Assembly (NCBI GenBank): GCA_017421125.1
Contig: JAFOMZ010000014.1
Span: 1 to 44,693, forward strand
Length of the DNA stretch: 44,693 bases
Source of the DNA: Solobacterium sp.
GTDB lineage: Bacteria; Bacillota_I; Bacilli_A; Erysipelotrichales; Erysipelotrichaceae
Direction of reading: 5' to 3'
This document shows positions 2,351 through 43,393 of the stretch, in pieces. Each line of letters opens with the position of its first letter. The stretch's first letter is position 1. Made by a program: the position numbers and the translations under genes. The notes under the pieces were generated by a model, which made no database searches, was not told the origin of the DNA, and saw nothing but the letters and a program-made list of their open reading frames with translations.

Positions 2351-3946
2351 ATGCAAACTATTCAGACTACAGTATCTGCTGTACAGGTATACCGCAGAGG
2401 AGCAGAAATCACAAGAAAGGGCAGTGTTGTTCTGGAACAGGGAACCAATACACTTCGTATCCTTGGCCTTTCCAACGGTTCTGATATGGATACGGTCAAA
2501 CTGTTTTTTCCTGCAGGAACAGGTCTGTCTGACATCCGTTTCAGCTATGGAACGGAAGATGAACCTGAGGACCGTCCATCTGCGAAGATCAGGGATGATA
2601 TGACTGCCTTACAGAGACAGAAGGAGATCCATGAACTTCAGATATCCTTATGGAAAAGCAATGGCGCATTCCAGGGAACCAGCAAACCGGACCTGACCGA
2701 TGTTGAAAACTACATTACCAGACTGCCGGACCGGCTGAATAAACTGTATGAGTCGATCAATGATATCGACAGCAGGATCAGAAAACTGGAAAAGGATCTG
2801 AGTGAGGCTGAACGACTGGAGAGTCTTCCGGTCATAACGGCTGTTCTGGAAGTTCCTTCAGCCGGAACATATCCGTTTGAGGTGCGGTATCATGATGCGC
2901 ATGCCATGTGGAATTTTGTTTATGAGATCCACACAGATGCAGAAGGTCCTGTAACGATGAAATCAAGAGCGAGGGTCAGCCAGAATACGGACGAGGACTG
3001 GGAAAATATCCCGGTCTCCCTGCTGACAAGCACACCTTCCGGAGGAAGCGTCCCTGAACTGTTGCCGGTCTATCTGAGCTTCAGTAAACCGAGGCCTAAA
3101 GTTTCAGCCAAGAATGCAATGATGGGGAGAAATATGATGGCAATGAGCGCACCCATGATGGCTATGATGGATGAAGCTGAGGATTCTGCCATTGCAGTTG
3201 AAGAAACAGTTGAAATGGCGCGCATTGAAACAGAAGGCGCAGAAGTTTCGTCTGAAGAAACAATGACGGAATATACTCTGCCCGGCAGGAAAACGATACC
3301 TTCCGGTACCAAGGGCGTCATGGCTGATCTCAAAGTATATGAACTGCCTGGTGAATACGAATTGCTGGCTGTTCCGAAAAAGGATGTACATGTTTATCTT
3401 GTTGCTAAACTGAAGACAAAGGATCTGCCTTCGGACATCAGGGGAACAGCAGGTATTTACCTGAATGGTGTTTATTCCGGTGAAACCTCAGTGGCACCGG
3501 ACCTGACCAAAGAAACTCTGAATATCCCGCTTGGAAAAGCAGAAGGGATCCAGGTCAGCCGGACGGAAAAGAAGCGTAAGACATCTGATGCACTGCTCAA
3601 GAATCAGCGGACAACAGAGTATGTATATGAACTGAAACTGACAAACAACAGGAATACAGGCGTCACTGTGACTGTTCAGGATCAGATCCCGTCGTCACAG
3701 GAAAAGACCATCATTATTGAAACAAAGAACAATGATCATGCAGAAACAGCGGATAACGGTATTCTGACGTGGAAGTGTGCTGCCGGTCCGAAGGAAACAA
3801 AGGTATTGAATCTTGCATATAACGTCAGTTGGCCGAAAGATAAGCAGCTGTATGAGACCGTCAGACCATCTGTATGTCCGTCCTGCGGATATGAAGTTCC
3901 GGATGATCTCAGGTTCTGCCCTGAATGCGGATATAAAATGTACTGA
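2351..3946 (+). CDS. MuiA-like protein (DUF4140/DUF4139) with C-terminal zinc ribbon
   Basis: 531 residues starting at an ATG with GGAGG about 9 bases upstream. The first ~100 residues (VQVYRRGAEITRKG) match the DUF4140 N-terminal domain of the mucoidy-inhibitor-A-like family. A short coiled coil follows (about 120-160), then the beta-rich DUF4139 region (roughly 175-500), ending with a zinc ribbon with two CPxCG-type knuckles (CPSCG...CPECG). Around residues 257-275 there is a Met-rich stretch. There is no signal peptide, so it is probably cytosolic. The biochemical role of this family is not established. A lipoprotein gene follows 52 bases later on the same strand, so the two may be expressed together. 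Confidence 0.8.
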   Translation: MQTIQTTVSAVQVYRRGAEITRKGSVVLEQGTNTLRILGLSNGSDMDTVKLFFPAGTGLSDIRFSYGTEDEPEDRPSAKIRDDMTALQRQKEIHELQISLWKSNGAFQGTSKPDLTDVENYITRLPDRLNKLYESINDIDSRIRKLEKDLSEAERLESLPVITAVLEVPSAGTYPFEVRYHDAHAMWNFVYEIHTDAEGPVTMKSRARVSQNTDEDWENIPVSLLTSTPSGGSVPELLPVYLSFSKPRPKVSAKNAMMGRNMMAMSAPMMAMMDEAEDSAIAVEETVEMARIETEGAEVSSEETMTEYTLPGRKTIPSGTKGVMADLKVYELPGEYELLAVPKKDVHVYLVAKLKTKDLPSDIRGTAGIYLNGVYSGETSVAPDLTKETLNIPLGKAEGIQVSRTEKKRKTSDALLKNQRTTEYVYELKLTNNRNTGVTVTVQDQIPSSQEKTIIIETKNNDHAETADNGILTWKCAAGPKETKVLNLAYNVSWPKDKQLYETVRPSVCPSCGYEVPDDLRFCPECGYKMY

Positions 3947-15481: not shown

Positions 15482-15671
15482 GATTTATAAATGACGAAAA
15501 GGCCTGCTTATGTATCAAAACAAATCTCTGCCGGAAAAAGGTCTGTTTTGGAAGCGTATTCGTTGAATTATGCCATGGAATTTATTGAAAAAATGCTATT
15601 GTACCAACAGCCGGTAATATCCGGTCAGAATCAAAAAAGAATCAGCCCATATATAAGAGGTGAAAATAATT

Positions 15672-17084
15672 ATGAGAAAAACAAAGATTATATGCACGAT
15701 CGGACCTGCAAGTGAATCAGAAGAGATGCTCAAAAAGCTCTGCCTTGCCGGCATGAACGTTGCAAGACTGAACTTCTCTCACGGAACACACGAAGAACAT
15801 CAGGTGAAGATCGACAGGATCAAGAAAGTCAGGGAAGAACTGAATCTCCCGATCGCGATCCTGCTTGATACAAAAGGCCCTGAGTTCAGAGTCGGTACAT
15901 TTGAAAACGGCAAAGCAGAAGTTGCTGAAGGATCTGAATTTACCTTTACAACAGAGCAGGTCGTCGGTAACGAACACATAGCTTCCGTCAGTTATGCTGA
16001 TCTGGCTAAAGAACTGCTGCCGGGTGATACGATCCTGGTAAACAATGGACTTCTGAATTTCTGCGTCAAGGAGATCAACGGCTCAGAGATCCTGACCGAA
16101 GTTATTTCCGGCGGAGTGATCAGTGACCGTAAGTCCATGAGCTTCCCGGGAAAACATCTGCATCAGAAATATCTGTCAGAACAGGATGAAAAGGATATTA
16201 TTTTCGGTATCGAGAACGGAGTGGACTTTATTGCATGTTCCTTTGTTTCCGTAAAACAGGATCTGCTGGATGTTCAGAAAGTGCTTGATGAGCACAACGC
16301 ATCCGATATTGACCTGATCGCAAAGATCGAGAACCAGTCCGGTGTTGATCATATCAATGAGATCTGTGAAGCATGTGACGGTATCATGGTAGCCAGAGGT
16401 GATCTGGGTGTCGAGATCCCGTTTGAACAGCTGCCTCATATTCAGAAGGACCTGATTGCAAAGTGCAGAATGCTCGGAAAACGTGCTATTACAGCTACGG
16501 AAATGCTGGAATCCATGATCCAGAAACCGAGACCGACACGTGCAGAAGTATCTGATGTGGCGAATGCGGTATATGACGGATCCAGTGCAGTCATGCTGTC
16601 GGGAGAAACAGCTGCCGGTCTGTATCCTATTCAGGCTGTTGAAGCTATGGCTAAAATTGCTGTCGAAACAGAAAACAGCATTGATTATGAGAAGCGTTTC
16701 CACGACAATGAATTCATGATCAGCAACGATGTTGATGCTATCTCGCATGCTACATGCGGCATGGCGATCGATATTAAGGCAAAAGCAATCGTTGCCTGCA
16801 CATTATCCAGTCTGACTGCGCGTCTTGTATCGAGATTCCGTGCTCCGGTCGATATCATCGGTCTGACGACCAGTGAAAAGGCATGGCGGAAGCTGGCTCT
16901 TTCATGGGGCGTTACACCAAGACTCTGTGAGTCATTCCCGTCTACGGAGGTACTGTTCTTCAGTGCAAGGAAAGAAGCAATTGCAGCACTGGGACTGCAG
17001 CCCGGGGACAGGATCGTTATTACCGGCGGTATTACAAACGGTCAGTCCGGTAATACAAACCTGATCAAGATCGATGCGGCATAA
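15672..17084 (+). CDS. pyk: Pyruvate kinase
   Basis: 470 residues from ATG 15672 (AGAGGTGA upstream). It converts phosphoenolpyruvate and ADP to pyruvate and ATP, the last step of glycolysis. Diagnostic blocks: MRKTKIICTIGPAS, GMNVARLNFSHG, LLDTKGPEFRVG, the active-site IAKIENQSGVDHI (catalytic Lys), MVARGDLGVEIP and the KPRPTRAEVSDVANAVYDG region. The C-terminal allosteric domain is normal in size; there is no extra PEP-utiliser domain as in Bacillus enzymes. It is a single-gene unit, closed by the terminator at 17115. No convincing promoter was found in the 190 bases upstream. Confidence 0.98.
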   Translation: MRKTKIICTIGPASESEEMLKKLCLAGMNVARLNFSHGTHEEHQVKIDRIKKVREELNLPIAILLDTKGPEFRVGTFENGKAEVAEGSEFTFTTEQVVGNEHIASVSYADLAKELLPGDTILVNNGLLNFCVKEINGSEILTEVISGGVISDRKSMSFPGKHLHQKYLSEQDEKDIIFGIENGVDFIACSFVSVKQDLLDVQKVLDEHNASDIDLIAKIENQSGVDHINEICEACDGIMVARGDLGVEIPFEQLPHIQKDLIAKCRMLGKRAITATEMLESMIQKPRPTRAEVSDVANAVYDGSSAVMLSGETAAGLYPIQAVEAMAKIAVETENSIDYEKRFHDNEFMISNDVDAISHATCGMAIDIKAKAIVACTLSSLTARLVSRFRAPVDIIGLTTSEKAWRKLALSWGVTPRLCESFPSTEVLFFSARKEAIAALGLQPGDRIVITGGITNGQSGNTNLIKIDAA

Positions 17085-20026: not shown

Positions 20027-21031
20027 ATGGCATTTATTGACATTATCAAAGAAAAAGCAAGAAGCAGTGTAAAACGCATTGTTCTTCCTGAATCAGAAGA
20101 TGAAAGAACAATCAGAGCAGCAGCTAAGGCACTTGAAGAAAAACTGGCTGACATCATCCTGATCGGTGATGAAGCTGTAGTCAAAGCTGATGCTGAAAAA
20201 TACGGTGTAGACATCTCCGGCGCAGCTATCGTTAATCCTGAAACATGTGCAAAACTTGATGAATATGTAGCAACTCTGACAGAACTCCGTAAGAAGAAGG
20301 GTATGACAGAAGAACTCGCCCGTCAGGCTCTGCTGGGCGACCGTACAACATTCGGTGTTATGATGGTAAAGATGGGTGATGCTGATGGACTCGTTTCCGG
20401 TGCATGCCATTCAACAGCCAATACGCTCCGTCCTGCACTTCAGATCCTGAAGACAGCTCCGGGCGCAAAACTTGTTTCGGCATTCTTTGTAATGGACGTT
20501 CCGAACTGCGAATTCGGCAATAACGGTACATTTGTATTTGCTGACTGCGGTCTGAACCAGGATCCTGACAGCGATCAGCTCGCTGCTATCGCTGCTGATT
20601 CCGCAAAGAGCTACACACAGCTGGTTGGCGGAGAAGCAAAGGTTGCATTCATTTCCCATTCCTCAAAGGGAAGCGCAAAGCATGCACTTGTTGATAAAGT
20701 TGTTGCTGCAGTTGAAGCAGCGCATGCTCAGTATCCGGATCTTGTATGCGACGGTGAACTTCAGGTCGATGCTGCGATCGTTCCGAGCGTAGCAGCTTCC
20801 AAAGCACCCGGTTCCCCTGTTGCAGGTCAGGCAAACGTTCTCGTATTCCCGAACCTCGACTGCGGAAACAGCGCATACAAACTCGTACAGCGTCTTGCCA
20901 AGGCTGAAGCTTACGGACCGATGCTGCAGGGTATTGCAAAACCTGTAAACGATCTCTCCAGAGGATGCTTCTGGGAAGACATCGTGGGCGTAATCGCTAT
21001 TACAGCTGTTCAGGCTCAGATCGCCGGATAA
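20027..21031 (+). CDS. pta: Phosphate acetyltransferase
   Basis: 334 residues, the single-domain Bacillota type. It interconverts acetyl-CoA and acetyl phosphate, feeding ATP formation by acetate kinase (not in this window). Diagnostic blocks are IVLPESEDERTIRAA, GMMVKMGDADGLVSGACHSTANTLRPALQI, VAFISHSSKGSAKH, ELQVDAAIVPSVAASKAPGSPVAGQANVLVFP and NDLSRGC at the C-terminus. AGGAGG precedes ATG 20027. Own promoter and own terminator, so monocistronic. Codon use is strongly biased as in highly expressed genes. Confidence 0.98.
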   Translation: MAFIDIIKEKARSSVKRIVLPESEDERTIRAAAKALEEKLADIILIGDEAVVKADAEKYGVDISGAAIVNPETCAKLDEYVATLTELRKKKGMTEELARQALLGDRTTFGVMMVKMGDADGLVSGACHSTANTLRPALQILKTAPGAKLVSAFFVMDVPNCEFGNNGTFVFADCGLNQDPDSDQLAAIAADSAKSYTQLVGGEAKVAFISHSSKGSAKHALVDKVVAAVEAAHAQYPDLVCDGELQVDAAIVPSVAASKAPGSPVAGQANVLVFPNLDCGNSAYKLVQRLAKAEAYGPMLQGIAKPVNDLSRGCFWEDIVGVIAITAVQAQIAG

Positions 21032-25330: not shown

Positions 25331-26626
25331 ATGAAATCTTTTACTTACGTTTTAACTGATCCCGAAGGATTGCATGCACGTCCCGCTGTCACGATTTCCC
25401 AGACATGTGTCCAGCTTCAGTCTGCAGTAACATTTGCCTATAATGGAAAAACCGCTGCCGGAAATAACGTTCTTCAGCTGCTCGCACTCGGCGCAAAACA
25501 GGGTGCTGAACTTGAAGTGACGATCGAAGGACCGGATGAAGAAGAAGCAGTTGAAAAAGTCCTGCATGATCTTCGTCATAAGGCAGAAGAGCATACAGCA
25601 AAACCGCTGCGTGTAGCTTTCTTCGGTACAAAAGACTACGACAGACTTTTCTTCAGCGAGCTTGCAAAGGACAAGGGTCCTACAGCTTATAACTGCGATA
25701 TTCATTACTTTACGACCAGACTTACACCTGAAACAGCTAATCTGGCTCATGGATATGATGCTGTATGTATCTTCGTTAATGACGAATGCCCGAGAAGCGT
25801 TGTTGAAGAACTTCGTGAGTGCGGCGTCAGACTGATCCTTCTGCGCTGCGCTGGATTCAACAATGTTGACATCGCTGCAGCTAAGGAATGCGGAATCACA
25901 GTTGTACGTGTTCCTGCATATTCACCGTATGCTGTCGCTGAGCATGCAATGTCCATTATCCAGGCTGCAAACCGCAGACTCTGCAAGGCTTACAATAAAG
26001 TCAATGACAACAACTTTGCGCTGAGCGGACTGCTCGGAGTTGACCTGCACAATAAGACAGCAGGTATCCTTGGCACAGGAAGGATCGGTCAGTGCTTTGC
26101 ACGTATCTGCAAGGGCTATGGCATGACGGTTATCGGCTGGGATGCATATCCGAACCAGAAACTTGTTGATGAAGGACTTCTTACATATGTCTCCAAGGAA
26201 GAACTGCTGCGCAAGTCAGACCTGATCTCCCTCCATGCACCGCTGATCATGGGTGAAGGCGGAACATATCATATGATCAATAAAGATACGATCGCTATGA
26301 TGAAAGACAATGTCATGCTGGTCAATACAGCACGCGGTGGACTGATCGATGCTGAAGCACTGATCGATGCGCTGAAAGCACGTAAGTTCCATGCTGTAGC
26401 GCTTGACGTTTATGAAGGCGAAGATTCCAACGTTTACACTGATCATTCCGATGACTATCTGGAAACAGATATCACTGCCAGACTGACGATGTTCCCGAAC
26501 GTTGTACTGACATCACACCAGGCATTCTTTACCAGAGAAGCTCTGCAGGCGATCGCAGCAACCACAATGGAAAATGCACGCAACTTCAACAGAGACAGAG
26601 AACTCGGTATTGCCGAAGTCAAATAA
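25331..26626 (+). CDS. HPr domain fused to D-lactate dehydrogenase (LdhA type)
   Basis: 431 residues in one uninterrupted frame, AAAGGAG before ATG 25331. Residues 1-88 are a full-length HPr domain: GLHARPA with His15 and Arg17 at the canonical numbers, NGKTA at 38-42, ALG at 52-54. The regulatory Ser46 position is Asn (N45-N46-V47). After a short linker (EEHTAK), residues 93-431 are a full D-lactate dehydrogenase close to E. coli LdhA: FGTKDYDR, CIFVNDE, LRCAGFNNVDIAAAKE, the NAD loop GTGRIG, catalytic Arg in NTARGGLID, Glu in DVYEGE and His in TSHQAF. It reduces pyruvate to D-lactate and regenerates NAD+. The attached HPr could be phosphorylated by PTS enzyme I, tying the enzyme to sugar uptake (inference). 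Monocistronic with its own terminator. Confidence 0.95.
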   Translation: MKSFTYVLTDPEGLHARPAVTISQTCVQLQSAVTFAYNGKTAAGNNVLQLLALGAKQGAELEVTIEGPDEEEAVEKVLHDLRHKAEEHTAKPLRVAFFGTKDYDRLFFSELAKDKGPTAYNCDIHYFTTRLTPETANLAHGYDAVCIFVNDECPRSVVEELRECGVRLILLRCAGFNNVDIAAAKECGITVVRVPAYSPYAVAEHAMSIIQAANRRLCKAYNKVNDNNFALSGLLGVDLHNKTAGILGTGRIGQCFARICKGYGMTVIGWDAYPNQKLVDEGLLTYVSKEELLRKSDLISLHAPLIMGEGGTYHMINKDTIAMMKDNVMLVNTARGGLIDAEALIDALKARKFHAVALDVYEGEDSNVYTDHSDDYLETDITARLTMFPNVVLTSHQAFFTREALQAIAATTMENARNFNRDRELGIAEVK

Positions 26627-42011: not shown

Positions 42012-42157
42012 CGGACCGTCATCGTACGAAGAAAATAATGTATATCGGCTGAAGCCGGTTGACGTACAGAAGTACGATTGATTCATAAGTGAATCTGCAT
42101 ATCAGAAGGTATGTAAGTCCGGAATGGATTTTGCATACCTTTTTCAGGAGGGAAATA
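42008..42157 (+). promoter_or_regulatory. Candidate attenuator leader RNA of larC
   Basis: Possible promoter TTGACG (42008-42013), 17 bases, GAAAAT (42031-42036). The leader then holds hairpin 1 (42044-42059, loop TGAA), hairpin 2 (42063-42076, CGTAC/GTACG, loop AGAA), hairpin 3 (42080-42095, GATTCA/TGAATC, loop TAAG), and a terminator (arms 42106-42120 and 42126-42141, T5 to 42144). The larC ribosome site (GGAGG) starts at 42147. TGCATA at 42096-42101 can pair with TATGTA at 42110-42115, an alternative helix that excludes the terminator. No known riboswitch class recognised. Confidence 0.6.
42106..42144 (+). terminator. Intrinsic terminator directly upstream of the larC ribosome site
   Basis: AAGGTATG (42106-42113) pairs with CATACCTT (42134-42141), extended inward by TAAG/TTTG and TCC/GGA helices with one bulge; T5 at 42140-42144. 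Confidence 0.82.
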
Positions 42158-43393
42158 ATGAAAACACTATATCTGGACTGCAGCATGGGAGCTGCAGGTG
42201 ACATGCTGACAGCGGCACTGCTTGAACTTCTTGATGACAGAGACGCGTTTGTCAGAGAACTGAATGAGATCGGGATTCCTGATGTGGAATTCACAGCTGA
42301 ACCGTCCGAAAAATGCGGTATCACCGGAACACATATGTCAGTGAAGGTACATGGTGTTGAGGAAGATGAGCATCTGCATGAACATGACCATGAACACCAC
42401 CATGATCATGAGCATGAGCACAGTCATGGACATGGGCATCATCATTCGCATAATTCCATGCATGGGATCGAGCATATCGTCAACGATCACATGTTCCTTT
42501 CTGAACGTGTCAGAGAAGATGTTCTTTCCGTATATAAACTGATAGCAGAAGCGGAAAGCCAGGTACATGGTATGCCGGTGGATGAGATCCACTTTCATGA
42601 AGTCGGTACGATGGATGCTGTTGCGGATGTAACAGCAGTATGCATGCTGATAGAGAAACTTGCACCGGATCAGATCGTTGCTTCACCTGTTCATGTAGGA
42701 GCCGGTACAGTGAAGTGCGCGCATGGGATCCTGCCTGTTCCCGCACCAGCTACAGCACTGATCCTGAAAGATGTTCCGATCTATGGCGGCGCTATTCAGA
42801 GTGAATTGTGCACTCCGACAGGTGCCGCTCTGCTGAAGCATTTTGTTCAGAAGTATGAAAGCATGCCTGTCATGAAGATCAAAAAGATCGGTTATGGTAT
42901 GGGAAAGAAAGATTTCCCTCAGGCCAACTGTGTCAGAGCGATCCTGGGAGAGAGCAGGGACCAGACAGACCTGGTTCTGGAGTTGTCATGCAATGTTGAT
43001 GATATGACGGCAGAAGAGATCTCGTTTGCAACGGAACAGCTGATGGCCTGCGGAGCAAGGGATGTATATACAATTGGCATTGGTATGAAGAAAAACCGTC
43101 CGGGGACGTTGATCAGAGTAATATGCACTCCTGACCAGAGAGATATGATGGTTGAGAAAATGTTCCTGTATACAACAACCTTAGGTATCAGGCAGACGGA
43201 AACGAAACGGTTCACTCTGCACAGAGGTCTTGATACTGTTGAAACAGAATTCGGCCAGGTCCGGATAAAGAGATCAAGCGGCTACGGAGTGAATAAAGCA
43301 AAACTGGAATATGATGATATTGCGGAAATTGCGAAGGAAAAGGGTCTGGGGATCCGTGAAGTCCGCAATCTGCTGGCAGATAAGATCAAATAA
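42158..43393 (+). CDS. larC: Nickel-pincer cofactor biosynthesis protein LarC (nickel insertion)
   Basis: 411 residues from ATG 42158 with CAGGAGGG upstream. LarC, a CTP-dependent cyclometallase, inserts Ni into the pyridinium dithiocarboxylate nucleotide to finish the cofactor of lactate racemase LarA and relatives. Visible: LYLDCSMGAAGDMLTAALLELL at the start, a His-rich stretch at about 71-100 (16 His in 28 residues) for Ni binding, IHFHEVGTMDAVADV, HVGAGTVKCAHGILPVPAPAT, ELCTPTGAAL, then the C-terminal domain with CNVDDMTAEEISFA and KKNRPGTLIRVI. It is one continuous frame; in Lactobacillus the protein needs a programmed frameshift. larA, larB and larE are not in the window. Confidence 0.96.
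   Translation: MKTLYLDCSMGAAGDMLTAALLELLDDRDAFVRELNEIGIPDVEFTAEPSEKCGITGTHMSVKVHGVEEDEHLHEHDHEHHHDHEHEHSHGHGHHHSHNSMHGIEHIVNDHMFLSERVREDVLSVYKLIAEAESQVHGMPVDEIHFHEVGTMDAVADVTAVCMLIEKLAPDQIVASPVHVGAGTVKCAHGILPVPAPATALILKDVPIYGGAIQSELCTPTGAALLKHFVQKYESMPVMKIKKIGYGMGKKDFPQANCVRAILGESRDQTDLVLELSCNVDDMTAEEISFATEQLMACGARDVYTIGIGMKKNRPGTLIRVICTPDQRDMMVEKMFLYTTTLGIRQTETKRFTLHRGLDTVETEFGQVRIKRSSGYGVNKAKLEYDDIAEIAKEKGLGIREVRNLLADKIK

Follow-up and report, generated by a model that had tools for sequence, protein, structure and literature searches.

The gene at positions 25331 to 26626 (+ strand) of the window, i.e. the whole 44,693-nucleotide stretch of Solobacterium sp. DNA analysed here, raises the question of whether the PTS phosphocarrier HPr has genuinely been joined to a D-lactate dehydrogenase (LDH) and, if so, what an HPr domain may contribute to an enzyme of fermentation.

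Architecture of the fused protein

Translation of this region yielded 431 residues with a single stop at the end, in agreement with the one uninterrupted 431-codon frame reported in the initial annotation. The frame begins with an ATG, preceded by AAGGAGATATATA, and has a good ribosome-binding site. Its assignment as an HPr-D-LDH fusion is based on translation, profile matches and relatives. The claim that it combines a complete HPr with a complete LdhA-type dehydrogenase was borne out by Pfam and NCBIfam matches, the bounds being placed here at residues 1–82 (25331–25576) for HPr and 93–431 (25607–26623) for the NAD-dependent LDH, all on the + strand. The HPr domain follows a beta-alpha-beta-beta-alpha-beta-alpha order with a GLHARPA motif at residues 13–19, and matches PTS-HPr over residues 3–77 (E 4.3e-21; 75 bits against a cut-off of 23) and TIGR01003 at 72.9 bits (cut-off 47.9). 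Pfam 2-Hacid_dh matches residues 119–423 (E 3.6e-29) and 2-Hacid_dh_C residues 209–398 (E 1.6e-47); these and PTS-HPr are the only Pfam domains identified, and no EI or IIA domain was found in the fusion. The two parts are connected by a linker (residues 83–92; 25577–25606) of poorly kept sequence and almost fixed length.

The nearest solved LDHs are the LdhA-type D-LDHs of Fusobacterium, E. coli, Salmonella and Pseudomonas. The LDH part aligns end to end with enzymes of this type (PDB 3wx0, 4cuj, 5z21 and 5z20) at approximately 43–48% identity, most alignments with solved LDHs beginning at residues 92–94, and it shares with them all catalytic residues and the NAD-type Asp, although these enzymes carry no HPr domain. 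As had been proposed, the catalytic residues are all present: R335, E364 and H396, which we take to correspond to Arg235, Glu264 and His296 of the Lactobacillus D-LDH, are invariant in the fusions and common to unfused LdhA. Equally invariant are GTGRIG (residues 248–253; 26072–26089) and D271, which form a GxGxxG NAD-binding motif with an Asp behind strand 2. The predicted activity of the LDH part is the formation of D-lactate from pyruvate and NADH.

An AlphaFold2 model built with 54 homologues (mean pLDDT 85, pTM 0.73) returned the usual order of strands and helices in the HPr domain at a pLDDT above 90; it leaves the placement of HPr relative to the LDH unfixed. Among the Foldseek matches listed only LDH-like structures occur, and these give no position for HPr on the LDH.

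Distribution and origin of the fusion

Whole or nearly whole fusions were identified in 26 of 60 genomes of the relatives set, the source genome included. They comprise 13 of 36 from the genus and 13 of 24 from elsewhere in the order; in one further genome the fusion is split across two contigs. The same fused frame is thus carried by 25 further relatives at 68–97% identity. A GTDB scan returned 204 stretches that encode a relative of the fusion, of which 80 were kept; at least 80 loci match essentially the entire protein at 68–82% identity, under labels that include Erysipelotrichaceae, Lachnospiraceae and Solobacterium, among others. These loci include isolates, namely Sharpea porci, Sharpea azabuensis, Eggerthia catenaformis, Faecalibacillus faecis, Floccifex porci, [Clostridium] spiroforme, Lachnospiraceae KH1T2, Lachnospiraceae KH1P17 and Selenomonas montiformis. 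Since the same frame recurs in the relatives and in the GTDB loci, isolates among them, an assembly chimera or sequencing artefact is ruled out. The initial annotation had called for taxonomic mapping of the pair, and the architecture that it described has proved to be real and conserved across many genomes, which also answers its refuting case of a fusion confined to a single genome.

Outside the Erysipelotrichales the fusion is patchy, which suggests horizontal transfer. It occurs in 11 of 392 genomes of a phylum sample and in two of 295 genomes sampled from the order of Lachnospiraceae KH1T2; in 92 of these 295 the match is to an unfused LdhA of at most 59% identity. The second fusion genome of that order (L144) encodes a protein of 68% identity, i.e. 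the fusion is sporadic there. Among plasmids, three records were covered to at least 80%, none above 60% identity, and in the eight best matches listed the alignment begins at residue 76 or later, so that no fusion was seen.

A tree built from 94 fused and approximately 40 unfused LDHs places the 94 fused proteins together in one split (support 1.0) on a long stem of 0.42, and the fused HPr domains form one split against free HPrs (support 0.87), the closest free HPrs found being approximately 42% identical. As both domains form clades, the fusion probably arose once and spread later, HPr and LDH having stayed together since that event.

Conservation of HPr and remodelling of the LDH

Conservation was assessed in 92 distinct fusion sequences, whose HPr parts have a median identity of 56% (lowest 35%). 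Despite this divergence, no variation was observed at G13, H15, A16, R17, P18, A19, V47, L53, G58, G67, D69 or E70; the phosphorylation site His15 (25373–25375) and Arg17 are thus present in 92 of 92, and phosphorylation at His15 is predicted. Position 46 (25466–25468) presents a different picture: the Ser targeted by HPr kinase is never found, being replaced by Asn as in the present protein (85 sequences), Asp (five), Glu (one) or Arg (one), in contrast to free HPrs of the same groups, 20 of 27 of which have Ser. The fused domain therefore retains the Enzyme I site and has lost, as judged from its residues, the HPr-kinase site. With Ser46 exchanged throughout, the fusions have probably been disconnected from HPr control by way of HPr kinase and CcpA, and since His15 is fixed, Enzyme I is most likely the only input to the fused HPr.

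The domain has the fold and family scores of HPr, and it shares with Gram-positive HPr (PtsH) the GxHARPA motif, His15, Arg17 and hydrophobic residues at positions 47, 48 and 51 (V, L and L/M), which we take to be the known partner face of HPr. It differs from PtsH in being joined to an enzyme, in lacking Ser46 and in bearing signature residues of its own (Q24, C26, A42, G44, N46 and Q49). Its surface departs from that of free HPrs at A20, Q24, N46 and Q49, and recognition by Enzyme I is therefore not assured. Cys26 (25406–25408), for which a structural or a redox-related role may be considered, occurs in 91 of the 92 fusions, whereas free HPrs mostly have Ala. Purifying selection acts on the HPr part: dN/dS, estimated by the Nei-Gojobori method over the 60 closest pairs with dS above 0.15 (pairs that share sequences and are not independent), was 0.11 for HPr and 0.05 for the LDH.

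Relative to 41 unfused LdhA proteins, the LDH of the fused clade has acquired three features that nearly all of the unfused proteins are missing: an insertion at residues 114–117 (25670–25681) with an invariant Gly116, an ‘MG’ insertion at 307–309 (26249–26257), which directly follows the conserved H302-x-P304-L305 loop and which a small number of fusions lack, and a GxAEVK-type tail at the C terminus (residues 426–431; 26606–26623). These elements suggest, from their restriction to fused proteins, an interface that co-evolved with HPr. Going by the fold of D-LDHs, the substrate-binding domain presumably includes the N-terminal strand and the C-terminal helix together with the first insertion (114–117), and as this domain would adjoin the point of HPr attachment, these three elements are candidates for an interface.

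The draft source genome, which is 85% complete, encodes one Enzyme I N-domain and two free HPrs, the first of which is canonical and has Ser46. The fused domain is consequently an extra one, and the fusion is not explained by a genome short of HPr. The second free HPr-like protein (L120:1495–1752; 85 aa) has His15, with Lys in place of Ser46, and its gene lies directly behind that of a putative PTS permease.

Possible function and genomic setting

Enzyme I turns PEP into pyruvate while phosphorylating HPr. The most likely function of the fusion would be that of a D-LDH controlled through a phosphorylatable HPr, or docked to Enzyme I by it. Enzyme I and PEP would phosphorylate His15, and the pyruvate so released would be the substrate of the LDH. 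Under high PTS sugar flux, with a low PEP/pyruvate ratio, HPr would be mostly unphosphorylated and the LDH active, draining pyruvate and NADH to D-lactate, while at low flux P~His15 would hold the LDH back or alter its docking to Enzyme I. Joining HPr to a pyruvate-consuming enzyme would allow control by phosphorylation state or nearness to the source of pyruvate. What was observed and enters this explanation is the fusion and its conservation, the two intact active sites, the loss of Ser46 and the remodelled LDH; phosphorylation, the direction of its effect and docking are what we infer. That the unphosphorylated form is the active one is a guess by analogy with E. coli, where HPr binds PykF and PfkB, a precedent for HPr steering glycolytic enzymes (PMC8167557).

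The initial annotation had read the fusion as a sensor of the PEP/pyruvate ratio that switches or localises lactate production. Of that reading the architecture stands, and the invariant His15 and Arg17 and the Enzyme I gene of the source genome support it; we consider it an even call that the protein is a fermentative NAD-dependent D-LDH with its own HPr as a built-in PTS input and with activity or docking under the control of His15. The more specific proposal, that each LDH molecule would read the PEP/pyruvate ratio and PTS flux through HPr phosphorylated by Enzyme I and switch D-lactate formation post-translationally, without HPr kinase or CcpA, is plausible but held tentatively.

The remodelled LDH and the invariant His15 also bear on the alternatives. 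If HPr served to tether the LDH to Enzyme I, where pyruvate would be reduced on the spot, phosphorylation would cycle docking only and no allostery would be needed; the established release of pyruvate by Enzyme I upon HPr phosphorylation and the retention of His15, Arg17 and the hydrophobic partner face all speak for such an arrangement, which is nevertheless unlikely given that pyruvate diffuses fast, that cytosolic LDHs work untethered and that the changes confined to fused LDHs suggest that HPr and LDH touch. Those same changes would be left without a reason if the protein were an additional phosphocarrier, an abundant LDH whose Ser46-less HPr passes phosphate to EIIA domains, and the source genome already has two free HPrs, the canonical one with Ser46 among them. 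This we consider unlikely, even though the catalytic His and Arg are intact, the HPr family models score above cut-off, a domain devoid of Ser46 would escape HPr kinase, and an invariant His15 could equally reflect plain phosphocarrier work.

The faster evolution of the HPr part, approximately twice that of the LDH, would suit a structural relic, captured once and now serving only to stabilise or solubilise the LDH, with His15 kept for the fold or by inertia. Yet it is around the phosphorylation motif GxHARPA that the invariant residues cluster, and the fold of Crh, an HPr-like protein, stands without His15, which makes a relic very unlikely. Control of the LDH through, or docking by, a phosphorylatable HPr thus remains the preferred reading.

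A PTS domain placed on a non-PTS protein is of a kind already known, the partner here being a fermentation enzyme. LacS-type permeases are transporters that carry a IIA domain rather than HPr; as in the fusion, a PTS domain steers a non-PTS protein. Crh and NPr are HPr paralogues given over to regulation, and solved structures include relatives of the fused HPr among proteins of these types; Crh has lost His15 and kept Ser46, whereas the fused HPr presents the reverse and is joined to an enzyme. In multiphosphoryl transfer proteins (FruB/FPr and IIA-Man types) HPr is covalently joined to other PTS domains (PMC2405797), but these partners are PTS parts (EI, IIA) and not a metabolic dehydrogenase. 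With PykF and PfkB of E. coli the phosphocarrier steers non-PTS proteins, although as separate proteins (PMC8167557). The full-text open-access literature yielded no description of an HPr-D-LDH fusion, in line with the statement in the initial annotation that none was known, a result that applies to open-access texts and does not prove absence; the architecture is probably listed in domain databases.

FBP activation, Rex and CcpA are the usual explanations for how lactate overflow is matched to sugar uptake. Were the LDH controlled by His15, a single protein would match overflow to PTS sugar uptake, and the sugar-uptake phosphorelay would be covalently linked to the terminal redox step of fermentation. 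Carriers of the fusion include many gut and rumen bacteria, rumen Sharpea among them. Kamke et al. reported high expression (12-fold up) of a D-LDH gene of S. azabuensis in low-methane sheep (PMC5069950). This gene is probably the fusion: in the S. azabuensis genome examined (G047; L011, L041) no other close LdhA homologue was found, the remaining matches listed being approximately 34–35% identical.

The fusion is probably the main LDH of its carriers. An L-LDH/malate-dehydrogenase domain was not found in 17 of 24 fusion genomes searched (11 of 16 and six of eight), nor in the 85% complete draft of the source genome; a close unfused LdhA accompanies the fusion in only one of the 60 relatives (G055); and six loci (L093, L108, L113, L114, L115 and L116), those of the isolates Faecalibacillus faecis and C. 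spiroforme included, have a divergently oriented L-lactate permease gene just upstream. Across the 80 loci there is neither a conserved operon partner, the commonest neighbour family lying near 13 of them at scattered positions, nor a conserved PTS neighbour. In the upstream regions of 88 fusion genes, Rex and cre operators occurred at or near the counts for shuffled sequences, with nothing convincing in the window. HPr kinase (TIGR00679) was found in 15 of 16 fusion genomes but not in the incomplete source draft, the B. subtilis control having been missed; a negative obtained with PF07475, which missed the B. subtilis control gene, was discarded.

Upstream of the fusion the window encodes pyruvate kinase (15660–17084) and phosphate acetyltransferase (20027–21031). 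A protein encoded at 42089–43390 (+) matches Pfam Ni_insertion (LarC-like); such proteins presumably make the nickel cofactor of lactate racemase, and this one may be connected with how the genome's owner uses D- and L-lactate; no further lar gene was seen among the window proteins scanned. At 2351–3946 (+) the window encodes a 531-aa protein with DUF4139/DUF4140 and a C-terminal zinc ribbon.
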